Source: a virus. Taken from it: 25,114 bases of DNA. Location: IMG/VR virus record IMGVR_UViG_3300046048_000349, positions 1-25,114 of that record, one strand, 5' to 3'. The notes under the pieces are model-generated. The model was given only the letters and a program-made list of their open reading frames with translations, did no database searches and was not told the origin of the DNA. Position numbers and translations under genes: made by a program. The stretch's first letter is position 1; the number at the start of each line of letters is the position of its first letter. Positions 3,062-23,272 of the stretch are shown here, in pieces.

Positions 3062-3269
3062 GCCCCAAGAAAGGCACACCACAATGAGTAAGGCGACTTA
3101 CTTCTCTCGCGCCTTCTGCATGGAACGCGCAAAACACTGGGATGCTAAAAAGCTACAAGACCTTAAATCCTTGGAGCTTAACGAAGTATGGAGATGGCAC
3201 AACGCTGGATACCTTCGCGTCTTCACTGACGGGACGATTCTAGCTCTTCCAGATGTTTCTGTAGCTTAG
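3033..3269 (+). CDS. Small hypothetical protein
   Basis: This encodes 78 residues. ATG 3033 (MTKQQQGPSEPQERH) is preferred because AGGAG lies nine bases upstream. ATG 3024 touches that AGGAG, and ATG 3084 (MSKATYFSRAFCMERAKHW) has a weaker AAAGG upstream. The product is Trp-containing and helical (HWDAKKLQDLKSLELNEVWRW) and no domain is recognised. It is the last gene of the rightward accessory group. Its 3' end overlaps the 3' end of the opposing DUF4406/DUF5664 gene by 47 bp, and a terminator follows 30 bp after its stop codon. Confidence 0.5.
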   Translation: MTKQQQGPSEPQERHTTMSKATYFSRAFCMERAKHWDAKKLQDLKSLELNEVWRWHNAGYLRVFTDGTILALPDVSVA

Positions 3270-3963
3270 CCAGTGCTCGCCAAGCTACTTTCGTCCAATC
3301 GCCCTCCAGGACATGTCTTAGGAGGGCGTTTTCTTCATCAGCGCTCTTACTTCTATCCCATCGTATGGGCTGTCCTGGCAGATGCTGTTTATTGCCCAGG
3401 AAACTCACATGAGCTACAGCGGCTAACGCATTTGGAAAGTATTTGAACAGTCCGCTGTAGATTGGGTATGTCTTACGCTCATCAGCATTCTCTGGAAATA
3501 TCGGTGGAGCAATGACAGGAGCCTCTTGGCAGTCTGATCTAGCATCCATGATAGGCGTAAGATACTTAGGGATAAGACTCTCTGGGTTAATGTCAGCCAC
3601 TTTAATCACAGGATCCTCACCAGGGCTATACAACCAAACTGCACTAATCCCTTTCCATAGCGCATAGGACAGTTCTGCTTTTGCTCCTTTGCTATGTTCC
3701 CATCCAGGCAGCATCATAATCACGTCCGCATTCTCTACAGCGGCGATATCTCTTATGCGAGCTTGCTTTAGGAAATGTCGGCTAGGTGCTGGACCTGTCG
3801 GATCGAATCCCAAGTCCATGTCTGCACGTGCTGGGTTGATAACCACTAAGCGATCATTGGTTGTTTGCAGGTATTCCTCTGCAGCAAAAAAGGCATTGAA
3901 ATTATGTCCAGGCCATCCTTTCATCGGGCCAGACAGAACTACTGTTAAGTGCGATTCATTCAT
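3223..3963 (-). CDS. DUF4406 + DUF5664 (dATP/dGTP diphosphohydrolase N-terminal-like) fusion
   Basis: This encodes 246 residues. Residues 6-120 fit the DUF4406 / nucleoside 2-deoxyribosyltransferase-like fold: VVLSGPMKG at 8-16, NFNAFFAAEEYL, VINPA at 41-45, and LPGWEHSKGAKAEL at 85-98. Residues ~162-240 fit the DUF5664 (dATP/dGTP diphosphohydrolase N-terminal-like) family: KTYPIYSGLFKYFPNALAAV, GNKQHLPGQPIRWDRSKSAD, RHVLEGDW, KVAWRALAKLQ. Both domains occur in phage nucleotide-metabolism genes. The second belongs to a group linked to nucleotide-pool editing, including in phages that replace adenine with 2-aminoadenine, but no PurZ-like gene is present here. It is the last gene of a leftward operon, starting 4 bp after the phosphoesterase gene with GAAAG upstream. 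The substrate is not predictable from sequence alone. Confidence 0.82.
   Translation of the reverse strand: MNESHLTVVLSGPMKGWPGHNFNAFFAAEEYLQTTNDRLVVINPARADMDLGFDPTGPAPSRHFLKQARIRDIAAVENADVIMMLPGWEHSKGAKAELSYALWKGISAVWLYSPGEDPVIKVADINPESLIPKYLTPIMDARSDCQEAPVIAPPIFPENADERKTYPIYSGLFKYFPNALAAVAHVSFLGNKQHLPGQPIRWDRSKSADEENALLRHVLEGDWTKVAWRALAKLQKHLEELESSRQ
3300..3336 (+). terminator. Rho-independent terminator embedded in the opposing gene
   Basis: The perfect 8-bp arms CGCCCTCC (3300-3307) and GGAGGGCG (3321-3328) enclose a 13-base loop and are followed by TTTTCTTC. The T tract is on the plus strand only, 30 bp after the stop codon of the last rightward accessory gene. The same bases encode residues NALLRHVLEGD of the leftward DUF5664 domain. 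Confidence 0.75.
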
Positions 3964-3967
3964 TATG

Positions 3968-5002
3968 TTATACTACTTTCCCGCTGACTATCTTGAGGTT
4001 GTCGAAGCTCCATGCTGTGTGATTGAGTTCAATCCAAGCAAACCCATGGTTCCATTTGTTGAGTGGCCGATATCTAGGGCGTCTGTGACAAAGACAACCT
4101 ATGCCGAACGTGCTCACTGTCTTGTCTAGTCCTGACTCGGTGTGATTTGAAGTTTGGTGTAGGTGTCCAGCAGCACAGTTGCATTGGGCTCTGAGGAATA
4201 GGCCGCGAGCAGGGTTCACAGGATTGGTAAAACTTGAAGGAAATTCATGGCCATGAAGCAGATGTAGATGAGGCCCACACCTGATGGGTTGTTTATTGTC
4301 CACCAATTCAACTCCATACTCCTTGAAATCCAGCATTGTATCTAGCCTCAGTATTGGGGCTCCGTCAGGATCAAGGACTGTGAACAGCTCTGGCGCTCTT
4401 TTCCAAGCATATCTCCACAATCTCTCCTCATGGTTTCCTTCCTTGAAGATGATCCTGGATTTTGGAAAGCGAGCCCTTAGATGTTCAAGGAAGAGCCTGC
4501 CTGCCTCGATTTCATCATTTAACGGTTGGCGCAACCTAGGGTCTCTTTCCCAGAACGATACCGGGTAATGATCCAGGATGTCTCCTAGCAGTATCACACA
4601 GTCTGGTTTACGATCTTGTGCGTAGTCTAGGGCTGCAACCAAGGCCTGCTTGTCGTAGAACGGCATGTGAATGTCACAGAGCACAACAGCATTCTTGAAC
4701 TCAATATTGATGACTTTCCAATCATCCGGCTCTGTGATTACTGGTGGCAATGGGACTACTGCATCTGATTGTGTGCCTTTTGCCTTGTAAAATGCCGTTA
4801 ATCGCACATTGCTGCGTGCATGATTTCCATGGATACCACGATAGGTTCTTACAACACCCCTGGCATATTCAACATTGCTAAACAAAGCCGGTTCATGATC
4901 ACACAGTAATCTAGCCAGACTCTTACTTGGAAGGTGTGGGTATTTCCTGATGTATTCAATTGCTATCTCAGCGTTAAGTTTTCGCGGTTTTATGAATGCC
5001 AT
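3968..5002 (-). CDS. Calcineurin-like metallophosphoesterase
   Basis: This encodes 344 residues. The five metallophosphoesterase motifs are all present in order: CDIH (D110, H112), GDILDH (D141), GNHEER (N190, H191), LHGHEF (H250/H252) and AGHLHQ (H280, H282). The active site should bind two metal ions and hydrolyse phosphodiester or phosphomonoester bonds. The N-terminal ~60 residues (EIAIEYIRKYPHLPSKSLA ... ARGVVRTYRG) look like a helix-turn-helix-type nucleic-acid-binding region, an arrangement also seen in other phage members of this family. A role as a DNA or RNA processing nuclease or phosphatase is plausible, but the substrate is unknown. It lies 7 bp after the metallopeptidase gene and 4 bp before the DUF4406 fusion gene. 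Confidence 0.88.
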   Translation of the reverse strand: MAFIKPRKLNAEIAIEYIRKYPHLPSKSLARLLCDHEPALFSNVEYARGVVRTYRGIHGNHARSNVRLTAFYKAKGTQSDAVVPLPPVITEPDDWKVINIEFKNAVVLCDIHMPFYDKQALVAALDYAQDRKPDCVILLGDILDHYPVSFWERDPRLRQPLNDEIEAGRLFLEHLRARFPKSRIIFKEGNHEERLWRYAWKRAPELFTVLDPDGAPILRLDTMLDFKEYGVELVDNKQPIRCGPHLHLLHGHEFPSSFTNPVNPARGLFLRAQCNCAAGHLHQTSNHTESGLDKTVSTFGIGCLCHRRPRYRPLNKWNHGFAWIELNHTAWSFDNLKIVSGKVV

Positions 5003-5688: not shown

Positions 5689-5825
5689 TGAGAAAGACGT
5701 ATTGCGAATTCGTCCTTCGCATGGGGCGTAATGTGCTCTCTCCCCCGGCACGTGTAGCGGCAGTATCGGATTCTCTCCGCGATCCTGAGGCATTCACTTT
5801 AATCACGACAGGCTTATGGCTGTAG
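5688..5825 (+). CDS. Small protein overlapping the capsid gene start
   Basis: This is a 45-residue frame from GTG 5688, with GGAAG seven bases upstream. ATG 5721 would give 34 residues. The sequence SPPARVAAVSDSLRDPEAFT followed by LITTGLWL reads like a real helical peptide and has ordinary codon use. Its stop codon lies inside the capsid gene, overlapping the capsid ATG by 10 bp. Translation could therefore be coupled to capsid synthesis. The frame is open back to a TAA at about 5667. It is short, so homologues are needed to confirm it. Confidence 0.42.
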   Translation: MRKTYCEFVLRMGRNVLSPPARVAAVSDSLRDPEAFTLITTGLWL

Positions 5826-7129
5826 ATTGCACAAAATTCAACGACTACTTATTCCGGAGGACGGAGAACTGGGACCGGGAGTTGGCGAAGGATCGTTTCC
5901 CTCACAACTACCTATACACTACGATGTATGAAACCAAGACGTGGCCATCCTTCACCGGCACGACCCACACCTGGGATCGCTTCCATGTGACGCGAGCAAA
6001 TGACCCAGGATGTTGGGAGCAAATGGATGCAGATTCCTGCATCACAAACATCTGTGATGTCACTCCACGCTACCTCGGTTGGGGATCGACTCGGAACACA
6101 TACGTCAAATATCACACGGATTACAGAACTCCCGTGTTCTGCTTTGACCAACTCCGACACGTCCAGCAAGCTGAGGAACAGCTTCAAGCTCTTGTGGACG
6201 GACTCAAGAAGCAGCCCGATGAGATCACCTCGGACTTTCTCCGACATCTGGTGGTCCAGCAAGCCGACAAGATTTACATCTGCGGCAGTGGGCTACTCGA
6301 ATACACGGTGGATCCTGCGACGATCTGGGCGGATGACTGTCTCAACCTTCAGGTTGGCACAGACGACACCTATCTCCCAACGTCGAAACTCTCCATCGAG
6401 TATCTCAACAACTACATGGAGAACCTGCGATACAACGGGTATCACGACCAGGAATTCATGGAGCAGGGCAAGTTCTTCTCCACGATTGACCTCCAGACAC
6501 TGCAGGACGTCTCTAATGCGAATCCTGCGCTCACGCAGTTGTTCAGAGCTACTGACTTCGCCAAGACTGGTATTTACTACAAGTATGGCGTCAACAAGGG
6601 GGTCGGAGACTGGCTATTCAAGATTGATCCAGCACCGTTGCGGTTCAATTACATTGGATCCGGCAAGTTCCGGCGCATCTGGCCTTACGAGAATGTGGCG
6701 GCAACTGTGGGCAAAAAGCCCGAGTTCAGCACTGACTACAAGGCTGCTGAATACCAGATGTTCCACGTTTACAACCGGGCAGCTCGTCAGGTTCACGTTG
6801 GAGACATCACCTCGGTCAACGACACGATGAAATTCGGTCTGGCACGCTCGCTCATGGGCAAGTGGGGCTGGAAGAATCCGGACTACTTCCAGGCGTTTGA
6901 CATCAACACAGGAACCGTCTGCTATCACGACAATGTGAAGAAGAACAAGGGCTTCTTCCTTGGTGAGTTCGAGATGGGAGTTAAGACGATCTATCCTGAA
7001 ATCGAAATGGTGATCCTTGCGAAGCGCGAGGCTTCTGGAGTGGTCAATGTTCCTCGGAACGCTGGCACTGTAAGCATGACGACCTACCAGTCGTTGACGC
7101 CTTACAACACACTCTGCGAAGACAGCTAA
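5816..7129 (+). CDS. Putative major capsid protein
   Basis: This encodes 437 residues with no signal peptide or membrane segment. The assignment rests on size, context and style: a long soluble protein with aromatic-rich beta segments and a helical spine-like region (QQAEEQLQALVDGLKKQPDE), a strong terminator directly after it, and a codon choice biased to C-ending Asn, Asp, Tyr and Phe codons, as expected of the most abundant virion protein. It is the first full-length gene of the rightward block and is followed by fibre-like genes, and no other capsid candidate is visible. No separate scaffold or maturation-protease gene is recognised. The ribosome binding site is weak (GACAGG), and initiation may be coupled to the small frame that overlaps it. 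Confidence 0.72.
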   Translation: MAVDCTKFNDYLFRRTENWDRELAKDRFPHNYLYTTMYETKTWPSFTGTTHTWDRFHVTRANDPGCWEQMDADSCITNICDVTPRYLGWGSTRNTYVKYHTDYRTPVFCFDQLRHVQQAEEQLQALVDGLKKQPDEITSDFLRHLVVQQADKIYICGSGLLEYTVDPATIWADDCLNLQVGTDDTYLPTSKLSIEYLNNYMENLRYNGYHDQEFMEQGKFFSTIDLQTLQDVSNANPALTQLFRATDFAKTGIYYKYGVNKGVGDWLFKIDPAPLRFNYIGSGKFRRIWPYENVAATVGKKPEFSTDYKAAEYQMFHVYNRAARQVHVGDITSVNDTMKFGLARSLMGKWGWKNPDYFQAFDINTGTVCYHDNVKKNKGFFLGEFEMGVKTIYPEIEMVILAKREASGVVNVPRNAGTVSMTTYQSLTPYNTLCEDS

Positions 7130-7146
7130 TCGCAGTGGTAATCATT

Positions 7147-7174
7147 GGGGTGCCCCTTCGGGGGCATCCCTTTT
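7147..7174 (+). terminator. Rho-independent terminator after the capsid gene
   Basis: GGGGTGCCCC, loop TTCG, GGGGCATCCC, then TTTTAT. The 10-bp stem has one G-U pair and a stable UUCG tetraloop. It ends 20 bp before the next gene, so capsid mRNA is probably made in excess of the downstream genes. Confidence 0.9.
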
Positions 7175-7193
7175 ATACTGAAAGGATTCTCTT

Positions 7194-7589
7194 ATGGCCA
7201 ACACAGCCGTTATTACGCAGACAGAGTGGGTGGATGGAGCATCCAAATACACTCGTCAAAATCTCAATGCTAAAGAGCAACTAGCTCTGTGCATTCACGC
7301 AATGTCGATAGAGTTGGGAGCCGTTGGGGGCACCAATTACGTTACCAATGGATTCGAGTCACTCATTGCTGCCTCAGATGCCGTGAGCAATTACATGAAC
7401 CCCGATGCCCTTTGCGCGGCTGAGGTGGCTATCAGATACGCAGATGCTGCAAATGCCGGTGGATCTGTTCCGGCGACAGTGGATGCGAAGTTGCTGGCGG
7501 CAGTGAAGCTACTTCATTACGATGAGGATCGCCTACGGCGTGCCAAGTTGTATCTTGAGGGAGCATTAGGCTACCATTCCAGCTTCTAG
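7194..7589 (+). CDS. Helical structural-region protein
   Basis: This encodes 131 residues with AAAGGA nine bases before the ATG. The product is almost all helical and Ala-rich (KEQLALCIHAMSIELGA; LIAASDAVSNYMNPDALCAA; AKLLAAVKLLHYDEDRLRRA). No family is recognised. It lies directly after the capsid terminator and before three genes with a repeated helical module. The segment around residues 60-87 has spacing reminiscent of that module (small-residue helix, turn, Asp 28 positions on), so it may be a distant relative. A minor head protein is plausible from position only. Confidence 0.6.
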   Translation: MANTAVITQTEWVDGASKYTRQNLNAKEQLALCIHAMSIELGAVGGTNYVTNGFESLIAASDAVSNYMNPDALCAAEVAIRYADAANAGGSVPATVDAKLLAAVKLLHYDEDRLRRAKLYLEGALGYHSSF

Positions 7590-7617
7590 TTTGTTGGGCT
7601 GGTTGGTGTTGGGTGGG

Positions 7618-7649
7618 CTGGTTCTGGGCTTCTCACGGCCCAGAACCAG
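7618..7649 (+). promoter_or_regulatory. Perfect 12-bp stem-loop before the module gene
   Basis: Arms CTGGTTCTGGGC (7618-7629) and GCCCAGAACCAG (7638-7649) enclose the loop TTCTCACG. There is no real T tract, so it is at best a weak terminator. It could be an RNA stability or processing element between the 131-aa and 78-aa genes. Just upstream GGGCTGGTT occurs twice in G/T-rich DNA. Confidence 0.7.
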
Positions 7650-7669
7650 ACTTCCTAGAAAGGTTCGTT

Positions 7670-7906
7670 ATGGCGACATGTGATGCTGAAACACTGCTAG
7701 CCTCAGCTAGCGCAAACGGATTTACTAAGCTTTCTGAAGAACAATGTTGGCTGGTTGCTCTTGCCCTAGCCCAAGACTGGGAGGGTGGATCAGATACAGC
7801 CGCTACGATTCTTGCTTCTGCTGCATCAAATGACATCCTGTTTCTAAGCGACGGCAATCTATGGGATTGCCTATGTCAGAAGCTATGTGACATTTCGTCA
7901 GGCTAA
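7670..7906 (+). CDS. Two-module helical protein (MATC module family)
   Basis: This encodes 78 residues. ATG 7670 is chosen over an upstream in-frame start at 7613 because GAAAGG sits just before it and because two neighbouring genes begin with the same MATC residues. The protein is essentially two copies of a ~37-residue module: DAETLLASASANGFTKLSEE with its following helix, and DTAATILASAASNDILFLSD ending CQKLCDISSG. The module recurs in the next two genes, where it precedes distinct C-terminal domains. Here it stands alone. It may be a decoration or fibre-base protein that docks on the same virion site. Two bases separate its stop codon from the next gene. Confidence 0.7.
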   Translation: MATCDAETLLASASANGFTKLSEEQCWLVALALAQDWEGGSDTAATILASAASNDILFLSDGNLWDCLCQKLCDISSG

Positions 7907-7908
7907 TT

Positions 7909-9075
7909 ATGGCAACCTGCGTAGCCAACGACGTAATTCAAAACGCTAGCACGAGCGGATTTACCAAGCTGTCTGAAAGGGATCAGCTCAGTGTGATCGC
8001 GCAGAGACTTTATGACATCACCTCTTCCACGGACGATGTTGATACCCTAATGTCAGCCGCTAAAACCGCTGGCTTTACCAAGGTCACGTCTTCACGATAC
8101 AGGCTGGCCATTCTTCTACAACTGCTAGTGTCATACAACGCCGCAGGGGATAACGCTGGACAGATTCTCGCTAACTCCTCACTGAGCGGATTCCTGTTCA
8201 TGAGCACGAAGCAGAAGCGTGACGCATTACTGCAACTGCTGTGCGATTCCAGTGCGAACACTGCGGAGGTAACGTCATGGCTGTCTGCCGTTGCAGCTAA
8301 CGGAGGAGCAGCGCCATCAGCTAGCACAGTGACCGCACTCAACGCCTTTGTAACTGCGCTAGAGACTGCCTCGATCAAGGACAAGATGATCATTGTTAAT
8401 CCAATCGTTCCAGACAGCGACATTGCTGCTAGGACTCCTCTCATCAAGGGTCCAGGACACGCTTTGTGGATTGACAGTGGAGTAGACAGCCCAACTATCG
8501 GCGTCAATGGAGCAGAATGCGCTGGCAAAACCTGCCGTTGGGAGGTTGGAGCAGGACCTCAGGAGCTTGGGTGGAATCCAGGAATGCAGGACGCTGGAGT
8601 GATAGCCTACCATTATGCCAACGGAACAGGCACTGGATATGTGACGGGATGCAATACTGGAGGAGTAAGCGGTAAAATCCAGTTATACAACAAGACTATT
8701 CTGAACAGGTTCCAAGCTGTTTGGGGCAACCTAAGCTTTGGCTACATCAACTGGCTTGCGTCTCCAACATCCTTCTTTGGGTATGTTGGCACATTCAATG
8801 TGACCGGAGCGAATGGGATGAAGATGTATGTTGCGAGCAGCACCAAAGCTCACACATTAGCGGCTCAAGACACTGCATCTGGCATCGTAGATAACACAAC
8901 GATTGACTTCTACGCCCTATGTAATAACGACAATGATAATGTGACTGTTCAGCAACCATTCAAAGGAACAGTCTCGTTCCTTGCATACACAAAGAATCTC
9001 ACAGAAAGCGAGTCGTCTGATCTATATGACGCAATCCAGGCACTTAGAACCGGCCTGGGAGGAGGCGCAATATAA
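7909..9075 (+). CDS. Modular fibre/decoration protein with C-terminal beta domain
   Basis: This encodes 388 residues. Residues 1-~125 hold three copies of the ~37-residue helical module (ASTSGFTKLSERDQL; AAKTAGFTKVTSSRYRLAIL; SLSGFLFMSTKQKRDALLQL), followed by a degenerate fourth (SWLSAVAANGGAAPSASTVT). From about residue 165 a large beta-rich domain follows, with Gly/Asn-rich loops and a concanavalin-like end (GTVSFLAYTKNLTESESSD then LYDAIQALRTGL), typical of carbohydrate-binding fibre or surface domains. The stop codon overlaps the next start in TAATG. A receptor-binding or head-fibre role is inferred from architecture and position. Confidence 0.7.
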   Translation: MATCVANDVIQNASTSGFTKLSERDQLSVIAQRLYDITSSTDDVDTLMSAAKTAGFTKVTSSRYRLAILLQLLVSYNAAGDNAGQILANSSLSGFLFMSTKQKRDALLQLLCDSSANTAEVTSWLSAVAANGGAAPSASTVTALNAFVTALETASIKDKMIIVNPIVPDSDIAARTPLIKGPGHALWIDSGVDSPTIGVNGAECAGKTCRWEVGAGPQELGWNPGMQDAGVIAYHYANGTGTGYVTGCNTGGVSGKIQLYNKTILNRFQAVWGNLSFGYINWLASPTSFFGYVGTFNVTGANGMKMYVASSTKAHTLAAQDTASGIVDNTTIDFYALCNNDNDNVTVQQPFKGTVSFLAYTKNLTESESSDLYDAIQALRTGLGGGAI

Positions 9076-9545
9076 TGGCCACCTGTGACGCACAGACAAT
9101 TGTAAACAATGCCGCAATCAGCGGATTCACAAAGCTATCTCACAGGAACAAGCTAGACACACTGCTACAGTTGCTGTGCGATATCTCCAATGCTCCTGCG
9201 CCTACTTCAAGTCCTGTCACAATCGGTATGCCAATCTCTGATGAGACGAGCGATATCACGACAGACGTCAGTGTCTTCTCGATGCGTGCGCCATACGCAA
9301 TGACCGTTACTGAAATCTATGCCACGTTAAATACGGCGTGCGTAGGAAATACTTCAGTCGATGTGAACAAGAATGGAGCTACGATCATTGGTGGCGGACT
9401 GACAATCGCAACTTCGACAGCAGCGAGCACAGGGACGATCAGTGTGTCAGTGGCAAAAGGCGATTTGATCTCTGTGGACATCATCGCAGTCGGAGCTACA
9501 ACTGGAAAAGGCTTAAAAGTCTGGCTCATAGGAGAAACAGCGTAA
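9075..9545 (+). CDS. Modular fibre/decoration protein with short beta domain
   Basis: This encodes 156 residues with GGAGG before the ATG. The N-terminus (residues 1-~38) is one helical module, with AAISGFTKLSHRNKLDTLLQ and LCDIS. A short linker (NAPAPTSSP) leads to a ~100-residue beta domain. It contains FSMRAPYAMTVTEIYATLNT and NTSVDVNKNGATII, a pattern found in phage fibre and virion surface domains. The shared N-terminus suggests it docks at the same place as the two preceding proteins while presenting a different outer domain. It is linked to both neighbours by TAATG overlaps. Confidence 0.7.
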   Translation: MATCDAQTIVNNAAISGFTKLSHRNKLDTLLQLLCDISNAPAPTSSPVTIGMPISDETSDITTDVSVFSMRAPYAMTVTEIYATLNTACVGNTSVDVNKNGATIIGGGLTIATSTAASTGTISVSVAKGDLISVDIIAVGATTGKGLKVWLIGETA

Positions 9546-9982
9546 TGGCATTCACATATCCAATTCCGCAGACTGACAGGTTCGTGATCATTATTCGAGC
9601 CACAAACGAGATTGTTAAGCGCAACGTCAAATGGCTAAGGCTTGACGGATTGCCGATTGAGAACTTCCCAACTGACAAGGCAATCCTAAAGCTCAACAGG
9701 CAAGATAGGCCAGCCTACGATGAGAACACTCAGAAGCTTGTCCAGGTCGAGAACATCACGCTCGATCCGACACAGCCTGATGGTTATTGGACCGGTGAAT
9801 TCGATCTGGCATGGGACATTGTTCCTCTGACGCAGGCAGAGATCGACGCAATCCAGGAAAGGCAGATGGCAAAGGCTATGTATCAGGATCTAAAAAACAG
9901 TGTTGGAACAGGTGAACAACGTCTTAGGCGATGTGAACTTGTCTGCGCTTATCTTCTGAAGGAAGTTATCGGAGGGCAATGA
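9545..9982 (+). CDS. Small structural-region protein
   Basis: This encodes 145 residues from the ATG in TAATG (AGGAGA upstream); an in-frame start at 9338 would read through the previous gene and is rejected. The first ~100 residues look beta-rich (RFVIIIRATNEIVKRNVKWL; GYWTGEFDLAWDI), and the C-terminal ~45 are helical (AEIDAIQERQMAKAMYQDLK; RRCELVCAYLLKEV). The family is unknown. It overlaps the next gene by 4 bp (ATGA), and an accessory role to the fibre proteins on either side is likely. Confidence 0.6.
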   Translation: MAFTYPIPQTDRFVIIIRATNEIVKRNVKWLRLDGLPIENFPTDKAILKLNRQDRPAYDENTQKLVQVENITLDPTQPDGYWTGEFDLAWDIVPLTQAEIDAIQERQMAKAMYQDLKNSVGTGEQRLRRCELVCAYLLKEVIGGQ

Positions 9983-10776
9983 TTCTTCGACGTGTATATC
10001 AGCAACGAACAACCGACTGGATTGATGCAATTCACACAGCCGGAAGCGATGTTGAGTGGTCGAGTGCTGAAGCTGTTAATAACTTCGTATATCGGATACG
10101 ACTTCTAGGATTTTCGTCTCAACTAAAAAGGGTAAACGTATTAGCAGGTCTTGATCTCAGTGCAGCACTTGCCTGCCTTTGGGATGATATCGGGACAGCT
10201 AATTCAGACACCAACGTGGCATTCGTCAACGCCGACTATGCAGAGAACACCGGACTTGCGATGGACACCACGAATAAGTATTTAAGGACTGGCGCAGCAG
10301 TGAACTCTCTCAGTTCTACCTCACATCATCACGGGATGTATGTGTGCGACAACTTCAAATCTGAAAGATGTGGTCTTGGAGCATATAGTTCGACCGTTGC
10401 CACGTTCTTGCTCTGGTGTCCATATTCCACAGATACCGTTTATTCAGACTCTTACAGCACTGGGACTGGTCGCGTGAACAGTGGATCAGGGCTAACTGGA
10501 AGCGTTGCGTGGATTTTTGGACAAAGACTGGGGAATTATCATGAGATCAGGCGCAACACAACTACCCTGGCCTTCAACAATACTACTGGAGGTTCTGCTG
10601 ATAGCCGAGAGATGTGGGTTGGATGCTACAACGCAGCAGGATTTCCAATGCCAAGCCCAGGATCTTACGTGATGGGTGGATATTCCTTTGGCACAGATTT
10701 GACAGCGGGGACTGATGCGGACGACTATTATACTGAATGGCAACGCCTGCAAACAAGATTGGGGAGAGCAGTGTAG
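9979..10776 (+). CDS. Putative fibre/adsorption protein with concanavalin-like domain
   Basis: This encodes 265 residues with GGAGGG upstream. The N-terminal ~45 residues are mixed. The rest is a beta-rich domain full of Ser/Thr/Gly/Asn (TGAAVNSLSSTSHHHGMYVC; TGTGRVNSGSGLTGSVAW), ending with a helix (YYTEWQRLQTRLGRAV). The strands-then-terminal-helix plan matches phage concanavalin-like surface domains and parallels the C-terminal domain of the protein at 7909. No catalytic motif is visible. It probably contacts host surface glycans. Confidence 0.6.
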   Translation: MILRRVYQQRTTDWIDAIHTAGSDVEWSSAEAVNNFVYRIRLLGFSSQLKRVNVLAGLDLSAALACLWDDIGTANSDTNVAFVNADYAENTGLAMDTTNKYLRTGAAVNSLSSTSHHHGMYVCDNFKSERCGLGAYSSTVATFLLWCPYSTDTVYSDSYSTGTGRVNSGSGLTGSVAWIFGQRLGNYHEIRRNTTTLAFNNTTGGSADSREMWVGCYNAAGFPMPSPGSYVMGGYSFGTDLTAGTDADDYYTEWQRLQTRLGRAV

Positions 10777-10822
10777 TAAGTAGAAATACGGATTGATATC
10801 ATGAGATCATTCTGATACACAG

Positions 10823-11356
10823 ATGTCGATGAAAACACTCATACCAATCCTACTGTTGTCAGCTCTAACATCATACGGTCAAGTTCCACCAGCACCATCA
10901 CTGATCTCACCTACCGCTCCGACCAATGCTAGCGTTACACTAGCTTGGGATCCCAGTCCGACAGACCCAGCGCGGATTGATCATTACTCAATCCTCTGGA
11001 GCACAATCCCAGGAGCATACACGTTGACCAATTCGCTTGACGTTGGAACCAACCTCACCGGAACAATCACAAACTTGGCTGTCGGTGCCACATTCTACTT
11101 TGTTGCTACCGCAACTGGGACTAATCAGTTGATGTCGGATTTCAGTAATGAGGTGGAATTCCAGGTTCCAGCACCACCAGAATCTCCGTCTAATCTGAGG
11201 ATTGATGAGGCACTTCTTATCCGAGTGAATATACAGGGGACCATTGATCTCACGAATTACACTAAGGTTTTCGAGTTCGTCATAGATTCGCAGCAACCAA
11301 TAGGGCTTTTTAGGGCAGAACTCGAACAAACTACTAAGCCCTCAGTAACGTGGTGA
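10823..11356 (+). CDS. Secreted fibronectin type III protein
   Basis: This encodes 177 residues (ATG 10823 or 10829, no clear ribosome binding site). Residues 3-22 are a typical signal peptide (MKTLIPILLLSALTSYGQ). Residues ~28-117 form an FN3 domain: SVTLAWDPSPTDPARIDHYS, ILWSTIPGAYTLTN, ATFYFVATATG, DFSNEVEFQVP. The last ~55 residues are a separate small domain. This FN3 style is very common in Verrucomicrobiota proteins and may have come from the host. It is followed by a holin-like gene and a lipoprotein gene, so it may act in the periplasm during lysis or alter the infected cell surface. Confidence 0.75.
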   Translation: MSMKTLIPILLLSALTSYGQVPPAPSLISPTAPTNASVTLAWDPSPTDPARIDHYSILWSTIPGAYTLTNSLDVGTNLTGTITNLAVGATFYFVATATGTNQLMSDFSNEVEFQVPAPPESPSNLRIDEALLIRVNIQGTIDLTNYTKVFEFVIDSQQPIGLFRAELEQTTKPSVTW

Positions 11357-11361
11357 AGTCA

Positions 11362-11583
11362 ATGTTCAAAGGAAATTACGACATTCTCTCCCGAGCATTC
11401 GCCGGGATCTCTACAAGTGCTGCAGGCATTACAATATCAATCCTGCACCAACTTGAGACAATCCTGCGAATATGCTCTCTAGTCGTCGGCATTTCCGTTG
11501 GTCTGGTGACATTATACGGCATTATCACTAGGCTTCGGCAGGACCGTAAGCAAAAGACTGTTGACCAGAAGCCAAAATTGTGA
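11362..11583 (+). CDS. Holin-like small membrane protein
   Basis: This encodes 73 residues from ATG 11362; GTG 11350 or 11353 would add up to four residues and overlap the FN3 gene. Two hydrophobic stretches are visible, at ~12-28 (AFAGISTSAAGITISIL) and ~37-58 (RICSLVVGISVGLVTLYGII). They are followed by a short, highly basic tail (TRLRQDRKQKTVDQKPK). Size, two membrane segments and a charged C-terminus fit small holins. Its place between a secreted protein and a lipoprotein fits a lysis group, although no endolysin is seen in this window. Confidence 0.55.
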   Translation: MFKGNYDILSRAFAGISTSAAGITISILHQLETILRICSLVVGISVGLVTLYGIITRLRQDRKQKTVDQKPKL

Positions 11584-11596
11584 GTCAGTGTGGCGT

Positions 11597-12064
11597 ATGA
11601 ATAAACAACCAACCATCCTGGCATTCGTTGCGGCAAGCGTTATTGCGATTGTAGCCTTTACCGGCTGCGTATCCACTGATCCTGTCTACAGCGATGTCCC
11701 AGGCCCGAACGGTGAACAGGTGCAGATAGGATCCACAAACTACGTTAGCCCAGAGCTTCAGGAGACCCTGGATAAGATTCTCCTGGCGCATGATGGGACA
11801 GCGTCATTGAATCCGTATGCGCCACTGACACGACCAGTCATTGCAGGAGTAGGTGCCTTGCTCGTTGCAATCTCATCGTTAATCGCAGGCGTTAAGAATC
11901 GTCAGGCGTCGAATGCTTCGACAGCCCTGGAAACGATTGTGCAGGCAGTGGAATCAACAGCTCCAGAGGTCTCAGATGCTGTTAAGGCCTCGGTGAAGTC
12001 TACTGCGGCGGTTAAGGGGACTACCACATTAGTCAAAACTGCGGTTACAGCGGCTAAACAGTAG
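11597..12064 (+). CDS. Lipoprotein with a second membrane segment
   Basis: This encodes 155 residues from ATG 11597; a longer frame from 11561 would run through the holin-like gene's 3' end. Residues 1-25 form a lipoprotein signal with lipobox AFTGC. Residues ~79-99 (RPVIAGVGALLVAISSLIAG) are a second hydrophobic segment. The C-terminal ~50 residues are an Ala/Val/Thr-rich amphipathic helix (ETIVQAVESTAPEVSDAVKA). It may be an outer spanin-type or other cell-envelope factor in lysis, or a superinfection-exclusion lipoprotein; the sequence does not decide. It is the last gene of the rightward block and is followed 26 bp later by a terminator. Confidence 0.65.
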   Translation: MNKQPTILAFVAASVIAIVAFTGCVSTDPVYSDVPGPNGEQVQIGSTNYVSPELQETLDKILLAHDGTASLNPYAPLTRPVIAGVGALLVAISSLIAGVKNRQASNASTALETIVQAVESTAPEVSDAVKASVKSTAAVKGTTTLVKTAVTAAKQ

Positions 12065-12136: not shown

Positions 12137-14401
12137 CTATTTCTTAGACGGCTTTGCAGGCTGCTTCGGAGGATTCACTTTAGCCTGTTCTGCCGCACTC
12201 ATAGCCTTGAGATTTTCCCTCTCTATAGCTGCGGCGGTTTCAGCATCCTTGCGCCCCTGCTCATTGGCAAAGGCGATATTCTCCCTCTCCATCCTAGCCT
12301 CAGCCTTCATGATCTCAAGTTGCTGCTGCGCCTCGAACTTGGCTTGCAACTCTGCGATTTTGGCCATGCCTTCCTTGGACATACCTTGTTGCTCCTGTTC
12401 AGCCTTTTCGCTTTCAGCTAGCCGCTGTTCGTAGGCCTTAACCTCATTCATTAGCTTGCCCAAGGCATCACCGTAGGACTTGACTGCAGACTTCTGATTG
12501 GGGTCCTGTGCAAGCTGCGCAATCAGTTTATTGATATGCTGTGCTACAGTGTGCAGGCCAACAATCTTCTCGAAGTCAGCCTCTCCACCAGCTCGGTTGA
12601 TCAGGTCAATCTCGCCTGCAAGCAGTCCTATTAGCGTTTCGATCTGGTCAATAACGTTCAGTTCTGGGGCGATGCTTACAGGCAGTCCGTGCATCAACAC
12701 CGGGAAGCTGAATTCTGCATTCTTCTGGGCATTCGATACCTTTTGACTCTGATCCAACGGAACCATGCGGTCGGCAGTATGTGGGTTGTCAGTCATGATC
12801 GACACAAAGGTGTGCATCACTTCCTGCTGAGCAACCGGACTCAACTGATTCTTGATGTCCATCAACGCCTTGATTTGTGACTGCTCAGCAACAGGATTGC
12901 CTGCACCGATTGGCACTTCAGGCTCAATATCCCATTCTTCTGAGTCAATCCATTCAGGCGGTATTCCATACTTCTTGCAGTCTTTCTGAAACTGCTTAGC
13001 CTCCGGACATGCACCACTCTTCTTGGTAAAACGCCTGCAGATTTCCCTGTAAGCATGAGTCTCCTGGCTAAATGCGTGGGATAGGAGGCCAGACATCATT
13101 GCATTTACCATGGACATCTTCACCGCTGTTTCATACGCAGTTTGCTCCTTCTTGGTCCCAGTATCCAACTCCTGGGTGTATGATGCGCTTGCCTCCTGCA
13201 TTAACTGCTTCAGTTGAGCCATCGTCATATTTACCAGATTCGGGTCAATCTGATGTCGCTCGGCTGCCGGAACAACTCGAACACCTTCTGGAAGGAAACC
13301 TCTATCCATCAACTCCACCTTTAGGGCTCTGATGCGCCCATTAGGATCTGACGTCTGGAACAGCATGTTGAAACCCTCAAACATGTGCTGCAAGAGTCTG
13401 CATCTTGCCATGTTTGTCCAGAAGCATGGCTCAGTGAGCATGAATCCAAGTGAGCGAACAGAATGGTATAGGAAAGGAGCCTTGTTTGATAGGTCTCCAA
13501 ACTGAACCTGCAGGATCTGATCTAACTTCTCAGCTCGAATTCTGCTACCCTCATTGAACAGAAACTCAATAGGGTTGCGGCCAGAGAATCCCCTAACATG
13601 CCTATCTGGAAGCACCCTCATCTTCCATCCAATCCTTTTGCCTTCGCTACGATCCAGGAAGTAAAGGTGCCAAAGATTTATGGAAGGCACTGCGTCACCT
13701 GAGTAGAAGTGGCCATTCTGCTTGTAGTGTTCAGCCATCTTTTCCGGACGATCTGCCCATCCATAATCAGTCTGTTCGTAATTCGTATCGTGATAGGCAG
13801 CTAAAATTTTCTTAATTGCAGCCTTGTTCCAACCTTTCAGAGATCCCTTGCCAAATACTCTCTCTGACAGCTCTCCTGGAGTGTATTCCCTGCGCTCAGA
13901 AAACCATTCAAGGTTCTCAAAACTTATCTGAGTATCTGTAGGGACTCTCAAATTCTCGACCGAGACGAATCTAGGAAGCCAGCACTCCTGGTCATACCAT
14001 ATCTGAGGACCAATGCCATGCGCCACGATGGACGCAATTCTATTCCTCCAAAGCTCGGTGTATCGTTTTTCTCGCTTCAATGGGCGGTTGATCTTCTTGG
14101 TCATGAAGAGTTCCCAGTCTGAGCATCGCTCGTCCTCACAGTCAGGAAGAATGATCTTGAAGTAGCGTTTGGGTTTGATAAACGCATTAGCGTATTGCCT
14201 TCTGGCATGGTGAGCAAGAACAGCAGCCTCTCCCCAGTTTACGTTCACCTTCAAGTTCTGTCTCAAAGCGTCATCCGCACTTAATGGCGGCACAGAATTG
14301 AAGAGATCATTGACCTTCCTTCGATTATTAGAGCGGATTTGTTCTACTTCAGCTCCAGCTTCAATGGTGTCTAGTGCCTTTTTTGGGTCCGTGAAGTTCA
14401 T
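12137..14401 (-). CDS. Portal protein
   Basis: This encodes 754 residues, the size range of podovirus portals. It is soluble, with a mixed N-terminal body, a long central wing-like region, and a C-terminal ~110 residues of highly charged Ala/Gln/Glu helix (AYEQRLAESEKAEQEQQGMS ... QQQLEIMKAEARMERENIAF), matching the crown or barrel helix of large portals. The lysine/proline-rich end (NPPKQPAKPSKK) is extra. It forms the dodecameric DNA gate at one capsid vertex and binds the terminase and the head-tail connector. AGGA precedes the ATG, and the start overlaps the upstream zinc-binding gene by 4 bp (ATGA). The packaging order terminase, two small genes, portal supports the call. Confidence 0.85.
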   Translation of the reverse strand: MNFTDPKKALDTIEAGAEVEQIRSNNRRKVNDLFNSVPPLSADDALRQNLKVNVNWGEAAVLAHHARRQYANAFIKPKRYFKIILPDCEDERCSDWELFMTKKINRPLKREKRYTELWRNRIASIVAHGIGPQIWYDQECWLPRFVSVENLRVPTDTQISFENLEWFSERREYTPGELSERVFGKGSLKGWNKAAIKKILAAYHDTNYEQTDYGWADRPEKMAEHYKQNGHFYSGDAVPSINLWHLYFLDRSEGKRIGWKMRVLPDRHVRGFSGRNPIEFLFNEGSRIRAEKLDQILQVQFGDLSNKAPFLYHSVRSLGFMLTEPCFWTNMARCRLLQHMFEGFNMLFQTSDPNGRIRALKVELMDRGFLPEGVRVVPAAERHQIDPNLVNMTMAQLKQLMQEASASYTQELDTGTKKEQTAYETAVKMSMVNAMMSGLLSHAFSQETHAYREICRRFTKKSGACPEAKQFQKDCKKYGIPPEWIDSEEWDIEPEVPIGAGNPVAEQSQIKALMDIKNQLSPVAQQEVMHTFVSIMTDNPHTADRMVPLDQSQKVSNAQKNAEFSFPVLMHGLPVSIAPELNVIDQIETLIGLLAGEIDLINRAGGEADFEKIVGLHTVAQHINKLIAQLAQDPNQKSAVKSYGDALGKLMNEVKAYEQRLAESEKAEQEQQGMSKEGMAKIAELQAKFEAQQQLEIMKAEARMERENIAFANEQGRKDAETAAAIERENLKAMSAAEQAKVNPPKQPAKPSKK

Positions 14402-14766
14402 TGCAGGGCATCCTGTTCGTTAGTGATCCAGCAGTTCAACTGCCGTAGTTTGTCCAAGTCTTGAGGTGTCATATTTTCAACGATATGCTGAATAGGAACA
14501 TGGACTTTAAGTCGCAAATCGCAATTACAAACCATACATCCATGAAGTTTTCCCTCTTCTGGTATGCTTATCTTCATTGAGTTCTTTAGTTCAAAGATTC
14601 GCTTAATCCCCTTTATGACGGCTCTTGTTAGCCAGTAAACCTTGCCGTGTTTTGGACATTTCAAGCAACACTGTGCTCGACCGGAAGCTTGTCCTTTCTC
14701 GACAGGCCAACCCCCATCACCCATCCAATCGTCGAATGTCCTGACTGCTTGCTCAACCTTGTTCAT
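14398..14766 (-). CDS. Small Cys-cluster (zinc-binding) protein between terminase and portal
   Basis: This encodes 122 residues from the ATG ending at 14766 (a TTG at 14781 would add five). The first part is FDDWMGDGGWPVEKGQASGR. Cysteine pairs follow in AQCCLKCPKHGK and, after a helical spacer, in HGCMVCNCDLRLK. That makes a split CxxC ... CxxCxC zinc knuckle. The end is helical (TPQDLDKLRQLNCWI). It overlaps the portal gene by 4 bp. Proteins of this plan occur next to the portal in some phages; a role in packaging or head assembly is inferred from location. It is not a recognised small terminase. Confidence 0.65.
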   Translation of the reverse strand: MNKVEQAVRTFDDWMGDGGWPVEKGQASGRAQCCLKCPKHGKVYWLTRAVIKGIKRIFELKNSMKISIPEEGKLHGCMVCNCDLRLKVHVPIQHIVENMTPQDLDKLRQLNCWITNEQDALQ

Positions 14767-14784
14767 GACTGAATGTCGCAATCA

Positions 14785-15114
14785 CTACCTACTATGTCCA
14801 CCACAACTGCCACAGCCTCTGCGGACCTTCCTGGCGGCTGGCTGAATCTCCTGGAACGTCTTTGTAGTAGGCCCGTCTTCTACGCACCACCTATCATGAC
14901 CACCTAGACGAATGCACTGGTATTTGTCCACATCTTCAAAAGCCTCCTCGAATGATTGCCTTTCCAGCCCGTTTGCCTTACGGAACTCTGAAACTCTATC
15001 GGCTTGTGTGCGTATGTCGCAATCCCCCTTGAATTTGTGGTATATCCCTTGTGTTTGTTCGTATGGGAATCCGCCTGGGGGGAACGGTGAATGTCGTCTG
15101 AGTCGTTTAGACAT
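14785..15114 (-). CDS. Small hypothetical protein in the packaging block
   Basis: This encodes 109 residues with AAAGGAG upstream. The N-terminus is basic and proline-rich (MSKRLRRHSPFPPGGFPYEQ). The middle is a charged helix (DIRTQADRVSEFRKANGLER, QSFEEAFEDVDKYQC), and the tail holds a Cys-Gly cluster (RRGCGSCGGHSR). No family is recognised. The start overlaps the terminase 3' end by 8 bp, so it is translated from the same message. Its position could fit a head-assembly factor; nothing identifies it as a small terminase. Confidence 0.55.
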   Translation of the reverse strand: MSKRLRRHSPFPPGGFPYEQTQGIYHKFKGDCDIRTQADRVSEFRKANGLERQSFEEAFEDVDKYQCIRLGGHDRWCVEDGPTTKTFQEIQPAARKVRRGCGSCGGHSR

Positions 15115-16888
15115 GTTGTAGCATTGCTCCTTTTATTACTCTGTCGTAATGCTCTGCTGCCTGCAGAACTGGATCGTCTGGATTGTCCTGAACACCTTCT
15201 AAATGCGTGGTTATAGACTTGATTTGAAACCCCAACTGCCTTGCGCCTTCTACTCCTGTTGCCAGCCAGTCGAACAAGTCAGGAGATTTTCCCATGCGCT
15301 TTCTAGTATCCTTCTTAGATTCAATCTCTATCTTGTCACCCCTGACAGTTCCATATTCTCGAAGGCATCCTTCTAGCATGACTTCCAATGGCAGCTCTCT
15401 CATCTGCTCGCACTCGATCATTGTCCTCACAGAAAACCACATTTCAGTAATGAACTTTGAATAATGCTCGTCACATCTTTTGAGTCTCCTTGCGCCAGTT
15501 TTCTTGTCTATAACAAATAGATCGTGTCTGACAGGCCTGTCTGTGGGTGGCCCGCCTGCCGCCACTGCCACTGGAGGAGTGTTGCCGAACACCACTGCGA
15601 ACGATTCTCCGAGGGTTCCTTTGCCGGTTGCGTCGTAGAAACATCTTTCAGGAGGTATGTTATGCTCGTCCATTCTCATCTTGGCATGACGGGCAATCTG
15701 CATCTCAGGCTTCTCTGAAATCCCTGGCTTCACTGGAATAACTTCAGGAGGATGAACCTTTAGGACAAGTTCGTCCCTGTCAGATTGACCGAACTCCAGC
15801 ACTCCTCCAACGCATCTGTCTTCTCCACCGTATGACGGATCCAGTGCGTATAACTTAGTTCTGTTCGTGTCCAACCACAGAGCGTCTTCGTGAGCGTGGT
15901 GCTTTTTGCATAAGTCAGATGTGATAACACGCCTGCCAACCAACCCAAAACGCATGACACCCTTGCACTGGGAGTAGTATTGGATTGAGTCCTTTCCGTA
16001 GAAGTTGATCGTGCTGTCGATCTTTCTCCAGGAAATCATGTAGGGATACTTCGGCGGCTTGTGCTTGGGGTATTCGAAGTTTGGGGAGTCAGTCCCAACA
16101 AGATTCACACACCAACCGTTGAAGAACTTCGTTGGCCAACAAGCGGTCTTCTCTGGCTCTTCCTGGGAATCCCAACCGTCCAGCGGCTCTGCAAGCCTTC
16201 CAAGACAGTCTGTGGTTTCCAGTGGGTTTCCAAGAAATGCGCTCTTGTAGTCTTTCCCGAGATAGTTTGGAATAGCGTCTAAGAACGATGGCCCCATGAA
16301 CTGCACCTCGTCACCGATTTGGCGAAGCCGCTTTTGCTTAACTCCAACGTATTTCCCAAGCCCAACATACCGACCTGACTGCATACATGGGATGCAGATG
16401 ATGCCTTTCCTGAGCACCCGCGCCTGACGGTTATCCTCAGTGATGGCGTCTGTGGTTATGGCATGTTTTGAGTCAAGAACCAGCCCCGGCAGGTATGGAT
16501 ACCGCTCAAGAGCACGATTGAAGAGGTCCTTCATGGCCCCCCATACGCGCAATTCCAACCCTCTTACGTCAGTAGAACTGACGAGAACCAAGGTATCATT
16601 GGGGCTAGTCCAGTATTCTATGAGCCCCCACTTTGCCGTTGGATACGTCTTTCCGGAGTCAGAACAACCCATCAGGGTCGTGATCGTATTCTTGGCCAAA
16701 TGCTCAAACACAAGCTTGAACCAGCGGTGCTGGTCATCTTCTGGCCATAGTAGCCTATCAATGGATAAATAGTGCTCTAACGGAGAATCCTTCCAGAGTT
16801 TTAACTGGAGCATTGAAAACTCAATCTCGATGTCTGTCATTCCTGGAGGCCACTCCAGTCCATATTTCAATACGTTTCCGTTTGACAT
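15107..16888 (-). CDS. terL: Large terminase subunit
   Basis: This encodes 593 residues from the ATG ending at 16888; a GTG at 16900 would add four (numbering here from that GTG). The ATPase half has Walker A GCSDSGKT (residues 78-85) and a Walker B-like IGDE (D197/E198). The nuclease half has three acidic positions in order: YALDPSYGG (D354), FYDATGKG (D423) and SPDLFDWLATG (D541/D544). It drives ATP-dependent DNA packaging into the prohead through the portal and cuts concatemers. It is the first gene of a leftward packaging block. No clear Shine-Dalgarno sequence precedes either start. The spacer to the divergent fibre gene is only 46 bp, so the promoter must lie there or inside that gene. 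Confidence 0.93.
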   Translation of the reverse strand: MSNGNVLKYGLEWPPGMTDIEIEFSMLQLKLWKDSPLEHYLSIDRLLWPEDDQHRWFKLVFEHLAKNTITTLMGCSDSGKTYPTAKWGLIEYWTSPNDTLVLVSSTDVRGLELRVWGAMKDLFNRALERYPYLPGLVLDSKHAITTDAITEDNRQARVLRKGIICIPCMQSGRYVGLGKYVGVKQKRLRQIGDEVQFMGPSFLDAIPNYLGKDYKSAFLGNPLETTDCLGRLAEPLDGWDSQEEPEKTACWPTKFFNGWCVNLVGTDSPNFEYPKHKPPKYPYMISWRKIDSTINFYGKDSIQYYSQCKGVMRFGLVGRRVITSDLCKKHHAHEDALWLDTNRTKLYALDPSYGGEDRCVGGVLEFGQSDRDELVLKVHPPEVIPVKPGISEKPEMQIARHAKMRMDEHNIPPERCFYDATGKGTLGESFAVVFGNTPPVAVAAGGPPTDRPVRHDLFVIDKKTGARRLKRCDEHYSKFITEMWFSVRTMIECEQMRELPLEVMLEGCLREYGTVRGDKIEIESKKDTRKRMGKSPDLFDWLATGVEGARQLGFQIKSITTHLEGVQDNPDDPVLQAAEHYDRVIKGAMLQHV

Positions 16889-16934
16889 AGGTTGTTGCAC
16901 AGACGTTAATCTTACGTAGAACTACTTACAAGCT

Positions 16935-17789
16935 ATGTCTAACGCTCAAAGTTGCCAACCGTGTTGCTCGACAACCCAGACAGTGAACGTCCCCGGCGTT
17001 GCCGGTGCTGATGGCGCTGACGGGGCTGCTGGAGCAGATGGAGTGAACGCTTACACCACAACCACTGCAGATTTCGATGTTCCAACTGTAGGCGGCACGG
17101 TGCCTGTGAATGTTGTGAATTCAAGCTGGATGGTTGTCGGACAGCCTATCTTTGTAGAGGGTCCTGCCAACTTCGTGGTGGATTCAGTGCCCACTACAAC
17201 CTCGTGTGTATTGGAATTTAAGGGTCACGAAGACGATTTGTCCCCAGGATCTACCATTTCATGGCCTGCTGGAGTCAGCCCCGGCGGCACTCAACCAGCA
17301 GCAATCACCGCATCGCAGTTGACTGATTACCAGAACGAGACTTTGCGGGCAAATTGCCACACGTTCTCTGAGACTCCTGAAGCGCTTCAATTCAATGCGG
17401 TCAACCAGTCTCTCGTAATCAACGCCACAGGAAAATGGCTTCTGTTAGCCAAGGTTCGCGTTGACTACTCATGGGCTACCTATTCGGAAGACAACAAAAT
17501 TCTGAATCTAAAGCTACGAAGAACTAACAACTCTGCAGCCGACATTGCCGATACGACCGTTGCAATTAAACTGCGAGACGTCTCGACTGCCTACTTCACA
17601 GCCCAGGTTGTGGACCTTCCGCAAGTTGTGTATAACACCACGAATACAACTGATGCACTGAGCATCTACGGATGGCTGGATAGCGGAGACTTGCCAGACA
17701 ACGCTGCGTCAGACCTACCAACCGGGAATGGGCGTGTAATTGCTCTTGAGTCTTCACTCGTCGCAATCAAAGTCGCTGAAGCAAGCTAA
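16935..17789 (+). CDS. Collagen-like/C1q-like fibre protein
   Basis: This encodes 284 residues. A Cys-rich start (MSNAQSCQPCCSTTQTVNVP) is followed by about six collagen-type G-x-y triplets (GVAGADGADGAAGADG) and a beta domain (VPTVGGTVPVNVVNSSWMVV). After a linker, residues ~140-284 resemble a trimeric jelly-roll/C1q-like head (INATGKWLLLAKVRVDYSWA; ILNLKLRRTNN). This is the plan of short phage fibres, with the collagen part forming a trimer. It is the first gene of the tail block, divergent from terminase, and has no obvious ribosome binding site. Confidence 0.75.
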   Translation: MSNAQSCQPCCSTTQTVNVPGVAGADGADGAAGADGVNAYTTTTADFDVPTVGGTVPVNVVNSSWMVVGQPIFVEGPANFVVDSVPTTTSCVLEFKGHEDDLSPGSTISWPAGVSPGGTQPAAITASQLTDYQNETLRANCHTFSETPEALQFNAVNQSLVINATGKWLLLAKVRVDYSWATYSEDNKILNLKLRRTNNSAADIADTTVAIKLRDVSTAYFTAQVVDLPQVVYNTTNTTDALSIYGWLDSGDLPDNAASDLPTGNGRVIALESSLVAIKVAEAS

Positions 17790-17793
17790 TGAG

Positions 17794-19812: not shown

Positions 19813-20936
19813 GCGACTGCACACAATTAGAATGTTGCTTTGGCAATGACCTACTACTTGGGGACCTTGCTGGCTTCAGTATTGTTGGTGGAGACTATCC
19901 TGGAGGGTCTATCAACGGAAATCCTGAGAGCACATTCATTGTAGATTGTCCTCCAGGGCAGACCTGTGCTCCTGGAGAATATCCTAAACTTGTCACGATT
20001 CCCAAGAACACGGTCATCAATCCATATCCTCCATACACTGGCGAGCCAATAATTATACATCAACCATGCGCAACTTCAGGTGGGACAACTAGGTATTTGC
20101 CAGCAGGTTCCACTTTAGCTCAGATCAACGCCGCTATTGCCGATGCTTTGTTATTGTGTGCTAAGGCTATTGCAGAAGAGCCTACCCCTGGAGGATGGAC
20201 AGTCATTCAGCAAACATACACCAACGACGAGGTGGATCCTGTTGAGTGCGATGAAGATAAGAAGTTCTCATCGGATCCTGGTGGCATTCTTGACTGGGAC
20301 GACTCAACCAAGCTTGCATCTTTCCCGAAGGATAGGGTTGTTAGCTTGGTAAGCAAGGCTGACGCAAACAATCTGGCTGACGGATACATCGCTGATCAGA
20401 TAGCAAAGTTCCTCGCAGGTGGAGGATCATGTGGATACTGGAATACCGCCCAACAGAAGTGCCCTCCTGATGGTCCTATTGCGGCTGCAAACACGTTTTT
20501 CTCTGCGGTTTCTCAGGCTCAAGCAGATCAGGACGCTCTGGATTCGCTGGCAGAATGCGCCTGTGACGCAAATATCGACGCCCTAACATGGACACCAGCT
20601 GGTTCTGGAACCGCAAGTGGAAGTGGCGCTGAGATCACGTGGGATTGCTCAGCAGCAGGAGTGGCTCTGACTAGCAGCGCTTGGGACAGCACCCCTACTG
20701 GAGTAACCTGCCAGCTAAGCGGATCATTTACGGTAACTGGCGCTGTTTCCTTAGGCTTAGCAAGATCTGGTGGTGGATATGAGAGTCTTTGGGGAGGCGT
20801 TTACGCTCCGGGGACGCACAATATCAGTCAGGTGATTGTCATCCCGTCATCCATACTTCAGCTTCTGTTTTTAACGGTCAACGCCGGTGGCGCGGGAAAT
20901 GCCTGCTCCGGTTACATGAGAGTTGGCCCAGTGTAG
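19809..20936 (+). CDS. Cys-rich virion-associated protein
   Basis: This encodes 375 residues. The first ~80 are Cys- and Pro-rich with no signal peptide (MSDCTQLECCFGND; CPPGQTCAPGEYPKLVTIP), followed by YLPAGSTLAQINAAIADALL. Residues ~130-250 are mixed with a helical stretch (NTFFSAVSQAQADQDALDSL), and the C-terminal ~110 form a beta domain (SGSGAEITWDCSAAGVALTS ... SGSFTVTGAVSLG). No named family is recognised. The position between nozzle and connector-like genes and the ATGA coupling indicate a tail or fibre component. Cysteines in a cytoplasmic virion protein may serve metal binding or crosslinking after release. Confidence 0.6.
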   Translation: MSDCTQLECCFGNDLLLGDLAGFSIVGGDYPGGSINGNPESTFIVDCPPGQTCAPGEYPKLVTIPKNTVINPYPPYTGEPIIIHQPCATSGGTTRYLPAGSTLAQINAAIADALLLCAKAIAEEPTPGGWTVIQQTYTNDEVDPVECDEDKKFSSDPGGILDWDDSTKLASFPKDRVVSLVSKADANNLADGYIADQIAKFLAGGGSCGYWNTAQQKCPPDGPIAAANTFFSAVSQAQADQDALDSLAECACDANIDALTWTPAGSGTASGSGAEITWDCSAAGVALTSSAWDSTPTGVTCQLSGSFTVTGAVSLGLARSGGGYESLWGGVYAPGTHNISQVIVIPSSILQLLFLTVNAGGAGNACSGYMRVGPV

Positions 20937-20973
20937 ACTTGCGACAAATGAAGACGCATAGGAGAATCAAATA

Positions 20974-22577: not shown

Positions 22578-22587
22578 GAGAAAAAAC

Positions 22588-23268: not shown

Positions 23269-23272
23269 CAAT

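Follow-up and report, generated by a model that had tools for sequence, protein, structure and literature searches.

Three consecutive genes downstream of a predicted HK97-fold capsid gene begin with one to three copies of a 38–39-residue module, and the two longer proteins continue into different C-terminal domains. We read these genes as a head decoration or fibre array, in which a common N-terminal docking module carries exchangeable outer domains, with a probability of about 0.6. The window analysed here is an entire IMG/VR record of 25,114 bases. The six module copies are distributed as two in a 78-aa protein, three in a 388-aa protein and one in a 156-aa protein. All three translations start with MATC, as an earlier note on this DNA had observed. 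The features of the window are the following.

5816..7129, + strand: predicted major capsid protein gene, 437 aa (AlphaFold2 model compared with HK97-fold capsids; homologues precede the arrays in relatives)
7194..7589, + strand: gene of a 131-aa capsid-adjacent helical protein, a separate family (homologues in the same position; profile comparison negative)
7670..7906, + strand: gene of the 78-aa protein, modules only (two); leave-one-out E 5e-12, orthologue in the relative G032
7670..7786, + strand: module 1 of the 78-aa protein, residues 1–39 (leave-one-out profile)
7787..7903, + strand: module 2 of the 78-aa protein, residues 40–78 (leave-one-out profile)
7909..9075, + strand: gene of the 388-aa protein, three modules and a probably lectin-like C-terminal domain; leave-one-out E 7e-21
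7909..8025, + strand: module 1 of the 388-aa protein, residues 1–39 (leave-one-out profile)
8026..8142, + strand: module 2 of the 388-aa protein, residues 40–78 (leave-one-out profile)
8143..8256, + strand: module 3 of the 388-aa protein, residues 79–116 (leave-one-out profile)
8257..9072, + strand: C-terminal domain of the 388-aa protein, a helical lead-in and a beta-rich part, probably concanavalin/LamG-like (homologues in G037, G047, G054 and G057; weak fold matches)
9075..9545, + strand: gene of the 156-aa protein, one module and a small beta domain; leave-one-out E 6e-16
9075..9191, + strand: module of the 156-aa protein, residues 1–39 (leave-one-out profile)
9192..9542, + strand: C-terminal beta domain of the 156-aa protein (PHROG matches)

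The repetition across three genes, which the earlier note had reported from the sequence alone, was confirmed by leaving out one gene at a time. A profile trained without that gene was searched against ~29,000 reading frames, and each held-out gene was recovered with the E value listed above. Taken individually, module 2 of the 388-aa protein is the weakest copy (leave-one-out domain E 0.27). Twelve of the 15 module pairs scored above all 1000 shuffles, and two more gave p values of 0.001–0.002; the pair of second modules from the 78-aa and 388-aa proteins alone was not significant (shuffle p 0.35). DNA identity among the copies is ~50–62%, which indicates that the duplications are old. A further, degenerate copy had been claimed in the 388-aa protein (residues ~117–155, TAEVTSWLSAVAANGGAAPSASTVTALNAF...), and this part of the claim did not hold: the shuffle p value was 0.1–0.93 and the segment gave no profile match. 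In other proteins, one of them module-free, its aligned counterpart is the N-terminal end of the C-terminal domain, and the segment is accordingly the beginning of that domain in the 388-aa protein. The ATG of the 78-aa gene at 7670 is preceded by AGAAAGG and the same start is used in G032; an in-frame GTG lies upstream at 7613. The three genes are closely spaced, and the 388-aa stop and the 156-aa start codon share bases (TAATG), an arrangement that suggests co-expression.

The product of 5816–7129 has no significant family match in Pfam or PHROGs. An AlphaFold2 model built from nine homologues (pTM 0.65, pLDDT 59) gave N4 (9e99) as the best Foldseek match with a probability of 1.00 and an E of 1e-7. 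VIA likewise identified an HK97 fold, with N4 best at Z 15.0 and an rmsd of 4.3 over 257 residues. The assignment as the major capsid protein, with an HK97 fold closest to that of N4, is thus well supported by modelling and agrees with the earlier naming of this gene. The 131-aa protein that follows had been proposed as a distant member of the module family. The data do not support this: the profile comparison gave P=0.05 over 7 columns (hhalign), and the protein forms a conserved family of its own, whose members occupy this position in G032, G037, G047 and G053–G057. Many relatives also encode an acidic protein of 100–130 aa between capsid and array (for instance L237 10078–10389, L241 11548–11865, L242 11570–11959 and L248 12412–12777), which is absent from the window and G032.

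Searches of cultured phages with the capsid, 388-aa and module sequences and with proteins of the relatives did not bring up any relative of the system. Scanning IMG/VR directly with patterns and peptides of capsid, portal and module gave nothing apart from L002, a chance match. A looser module pattern returned L250, a chance match on a bacterial contig, and otherwise two records that were both already known. A pattern scan of 84,980 genomes for the tail protein yielded no relative, and the host was not traced. Access to relatives came through CVTWPRxVE, a motif in the window protein at 21501–22577. Scanning IMG/VR with it gave 120 loci, many with terminase, portal and tail proteins homologous to those of the window; further scans gave 80 loci with the tail protein at 17788 and ten with the capsid. 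A capsid homologue followed by same-strand module genes was present in 11 records (G032, G037, G047, G053–G057, G041, G038 and G027). The profile built from the window modules alone matched G032, G053, G054, G057 and G047 (E 7e-27 to 3e-4), in each case directly downstream of the capsid homologue and on the same strand. After iteration, a search of 29,164 reading frames from 248 loci gave 26 matches (some are overlapping fragments of one gene), all in capsid-adjacent arrays, and none in the tail gene clusters of these loci. This absence is meaningful because most of the loci were fetched through tail genes.

Gene order in the window separates these clusters. The portal, two small genes and the terminase (12137–16900, − strand) run opposite to the capsid array (5816–12064, + strand) and the tail cluster (16935–24040, + strand), and G027 (L126) has this order too. 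The tail cluster starts with a 284-aa protein (16935–17789, + strand) that has a collagen-like, Gly-rich N-terminus (GADGADGAAGADG) and homologues in many relatives. On the other side of the capsid gene, 3223–3963 and 3968–5002 (− strand) encode nucleoside 2-deoxyribosyltransferase-like and metallophosphoesterase proteins (PHROG 355, E 5e-16, and PHROG 221, E 3e-41).

The closest relative is G032, whose capsid protein is 72% identical. Its capsid gene is followed by a 146-aa homologue of the 131-aa protein, a two-module 78-aa protein, a three-module 368-aa protein and two one-module proteins. Module counts per gene are 2, 1, 1 in both G053 and G056, 2, 3 in G057 and 2, 1 in G054; G037 and G047 carry one long protein with up to five modules (counted by eye). 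Short two-module proteins occur in six records besides G032. Across the relatives, one to about five tandem copies are found in one to four neighbouring genes. Two variants of the module extend the family. A Cys-type module occupies the same place in G041 and G038 in a 2, 1, 1 arrangement and can be aligned with the window module from end to end (hhalign P 1e-5). A CRSPWE-type module, present in G027, G001 and others, follows the same pattern as the window type. It lies in the same place in G027, which has three copies; in seven further records, two genes carry a single copy apiece. Profile comparison with the window module gave P 0.001, and common descent of the two types is likely by sequence, although the CRSPWE type escapes a profile trained only on the six window modules.

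The tandem module at the array position of G006 is of another kind (FPEGTxxLxTDDExRS). In L127, 10488–11291 (− strand), tandem copies of FPEGTxxLxTDDExRSLxK span two consecutive genes after the capsid homologue. This module is possibly an analogous anchor of independent origin. In G045 the capsid match is good (39%) but the modules are absent, and a fibre-like gene follows the capsid gene. Fibre-like proteins with hydrophobic, signal-like N-termini also follow the module array in many relatives; such loci are L126 4461–6989, L127 8645–10603, L234 7882–9258, L241 13609–15081, L239 6448–9012 and, for the G045 gene that lies directly after the capsid gene, L231/L232. ITADxTxITAD repeats were seen in module proteins of 70–78 aa (the small array proteins of L128, L131 and L133–L136), and also inside homologues of the window tail protein at 17788 (L023 and L085).

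Comparison of the window with G032 shows what changes on the kept module. The modules are 48–60% identical (z 19–44) and the module-only 78-aa protein is 70% identical, whereas the C-terminal domains have no detectable similarity and score at shuffle level (z 0.7–1.9). In G057 (L248) the module carries FN3 (PF00041, E 8e-11) and a lectin-like domain, and in G041 (L237) BspA-type leucine-rich repeats (PF13306, E 1e-10); elsewhere it carries small beta domains or short tails. A conserved anchor with a variable outer domain is thus what we find, and a kept N-terminus with freely exchanged C-termini is expected of a docking module. In 11 records, in which capsid and array are physically linked, rho between module type and capsid identity is 0.65, as against 0.73 for terminase and 0.28 for tail; the module type thus follows the terminase as closely as the capsid, and the correlation does not demonstrate co-evolution with the capsid.

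The two outer domains of the window look unrelated to each other, as the earlier note had stated; all that they have in common is a weak continuation of the match between the modules. The C-terminal domain of the 388-aa protein has homologues in G037, G047, G054 and G057 and in one G047 protein without any modules. A low-confidence model of it matched concanavalin-like lectin domains weakly (E 0.015, Z 7–8), and in VIA the 388-aa model came closest to a Pan3 tailspike (Z 8.4). These matches lie within the range of unrelated models and are only a hint, although the domain is probably lectin-like. The beta domain of the 156-aa protein matches PHROG 38418 (E 4.5e-8, unknown function) and PHROG 2952, a minor tail protein (E 0.002). 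A related array protein of 149 aa (L128) has a beta domain that recurs in minor tail proteins of many cultured phages and is similar to domains of other virion surface proteins in cultured phages.

The window module proteins have no match in Pfam, the PHROGs matched the module only at E 0.38 and 0.47, and solved chains gave only chance matches to it at E<=10; no curated Pfam or PHROG family covers the module. In the AlphaFold2 model of the 388-aa protein, each module is a pair of helices (pLDDT 40–56), which weakly suggests a helical hairpin. On the proposed mechanism, each module would be a helix-turn-helix hairpin of ~39 residues, with GF/GY-x-KLS as its conserved turn. The modules, singly or as two or three in tandem, would attach to the outer face of the capsid shell, probably at a recurring site, for example the hexon centre, and the exchangeable C-terminal domain would project outward and bind sugars or surfaces of the host or its habitat. 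The 78-aa protein would be an anchor only; it may fill sites or complete those beside a one-module protein. The architecture is established, and in more than one genome; presence in the virion, binding at a capsid docking site, oligomeric state and adhesion are what we infer. The earlier proposal of a modular docking tag stands in that the module is common to the array, the outer domains are swapped, and the array lies beside a predicted HK97 capsid gene in at least ten related records; docking itself is the best explanation of these observations. A more specific version is speculative and distinctly unlikely: a single docking site with three module places could be filled by a three-module monomer (388 aa), by two modules (78 aa) plus one (156 aa), or by 1+1+1. 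The sets of G053, G041, G038 and G056 (2+1+1), of G054 (2+1) and of G027 (3) fit, but those of G037 and G047, where a single protein has up to five modules counted by eye, and of G057 (2 and 3) have no simple fit. If it were true, several displayed domains could be mixed on one head and exchanged with the capsid unchanged.

The modules could instead dock to the tail or the portal vertex, which would make the proteins tail- or neck-attached adhesins and the capsid neighbourhood merely the place where they are encoded. The C-terminal domains resemble minor tail proteins and tail fibres, and the Pan3 tailspike match of the low-confidence model points the same way. We nevertheless consider this unlikely: wherever we identified a capsid gene, the array comes after it, the tail genes lie in a cluster of their own, and the tail clusters of the searched loci lack the module. 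The head location is argued mainly from gene position, because the same types of C-terminal domain occur in tail proteins of other phages. It is very unlikely that the proteins stay off the virion as secreted or intracellular factors with a common interaction module. Their genes come directly after the capsid gene, they carry virion-type beta domains, and they have no signal-like N-terminus. The cluster is not purely structural, however, and the nearby gene at 10823–11353 looks secreted, with FN3 and a signal-peptide-like start. This gene (10823–11356, + strand) encodes a 177-aa FN3 protein (PF00041, below cut-off) that begins with MKTLIPILLLSALTSYGQ, and a similar gene lies downstream of the G032 array (L230 6995–7558).

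A role for the module as a stalk or oligomerisation element, away from the capsid contact, would resemble the supercoil of the phi29 head fibre. The helix-turn-helix repeats of phi29 gp8.5 are located in the fibre stem. That fibre contains a supercoiled, repeating helix-turn-helix motif (PMC11476376), and a copy number of one to about five would suit a stalk. The module is found at the extreme N-terminus even in one-module proteins, however, the stand-alone two-module protein fits an anchor better, and the module has no sequence match to solved structures; we regard a stalk as distinctly unlikely. The head-attached fibre of phi29 is also encoded beside the capsid gene (PMC11476376), but by one gene whose product is a trimer, and its repeats form the fibre and not the N-terminal anchor of several proteins. 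The module profile has no sequence match to gp8.5 (model pLDDT 40–56).

Other known systems resemble the preferred reading, a capsid-docking module with exchangeable outer domains, in part. In crAss001, hexon pockets receive residues 1–38 of gp21 and 1–58 of gp29, and the two proteins differ in their C-terminal domains; the anchors use different pockets, form a trimer and a dimer, and are present as a single copy each (PMC10172136). The likeness lies in short N-terminal capsid-docking segments with different C-terminal domains, on a head that bears two fibre types. Here, in contrast, one anchor family is common to neighbouring genes and repeated in tandem, and the module profile matches no solved chain. 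The N-terminal helical bundle of Sf14 gp20, which binds hexon centres, has 118 residues (PMC11821841); three modules together have nearly the same length, 116. Sf14 gp20, T5 pb10 and T4 Hoc likewise combine a capsid-binding domain with outward adhesive domains (PMC11821841, PMC7602432), but their outer domains are Ig-like, each is a single gene, and tandem repeats of a small module are not described. In the comparison with this group, the module profile gave only chance solved-chain matches at E<=10, and one relative of the window carries FN3. N4, which gave the best fold match for the capsid protein of the window, has an adhesion-type decoration of its capsid, gp17 (PMC7602432); this has three Ig-like domains, and a tandem helical module is not described for it (PMC7602432).

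Modular head display itself is already known, and a tandem anchor common to a gene array would be a new form of it. Most of the head fibres and decoration proteins known so far come from a single gene and have an anchor of their own. A tandem anchor that serves a whole gene array, and on which close relatives swap the outer domains, would amount to a plug-in display system made by nature. Such a system would provide a small tag for capsid display that can be moved genetically, and it would explain how the head surface diversifies in a group of uncultured phages.
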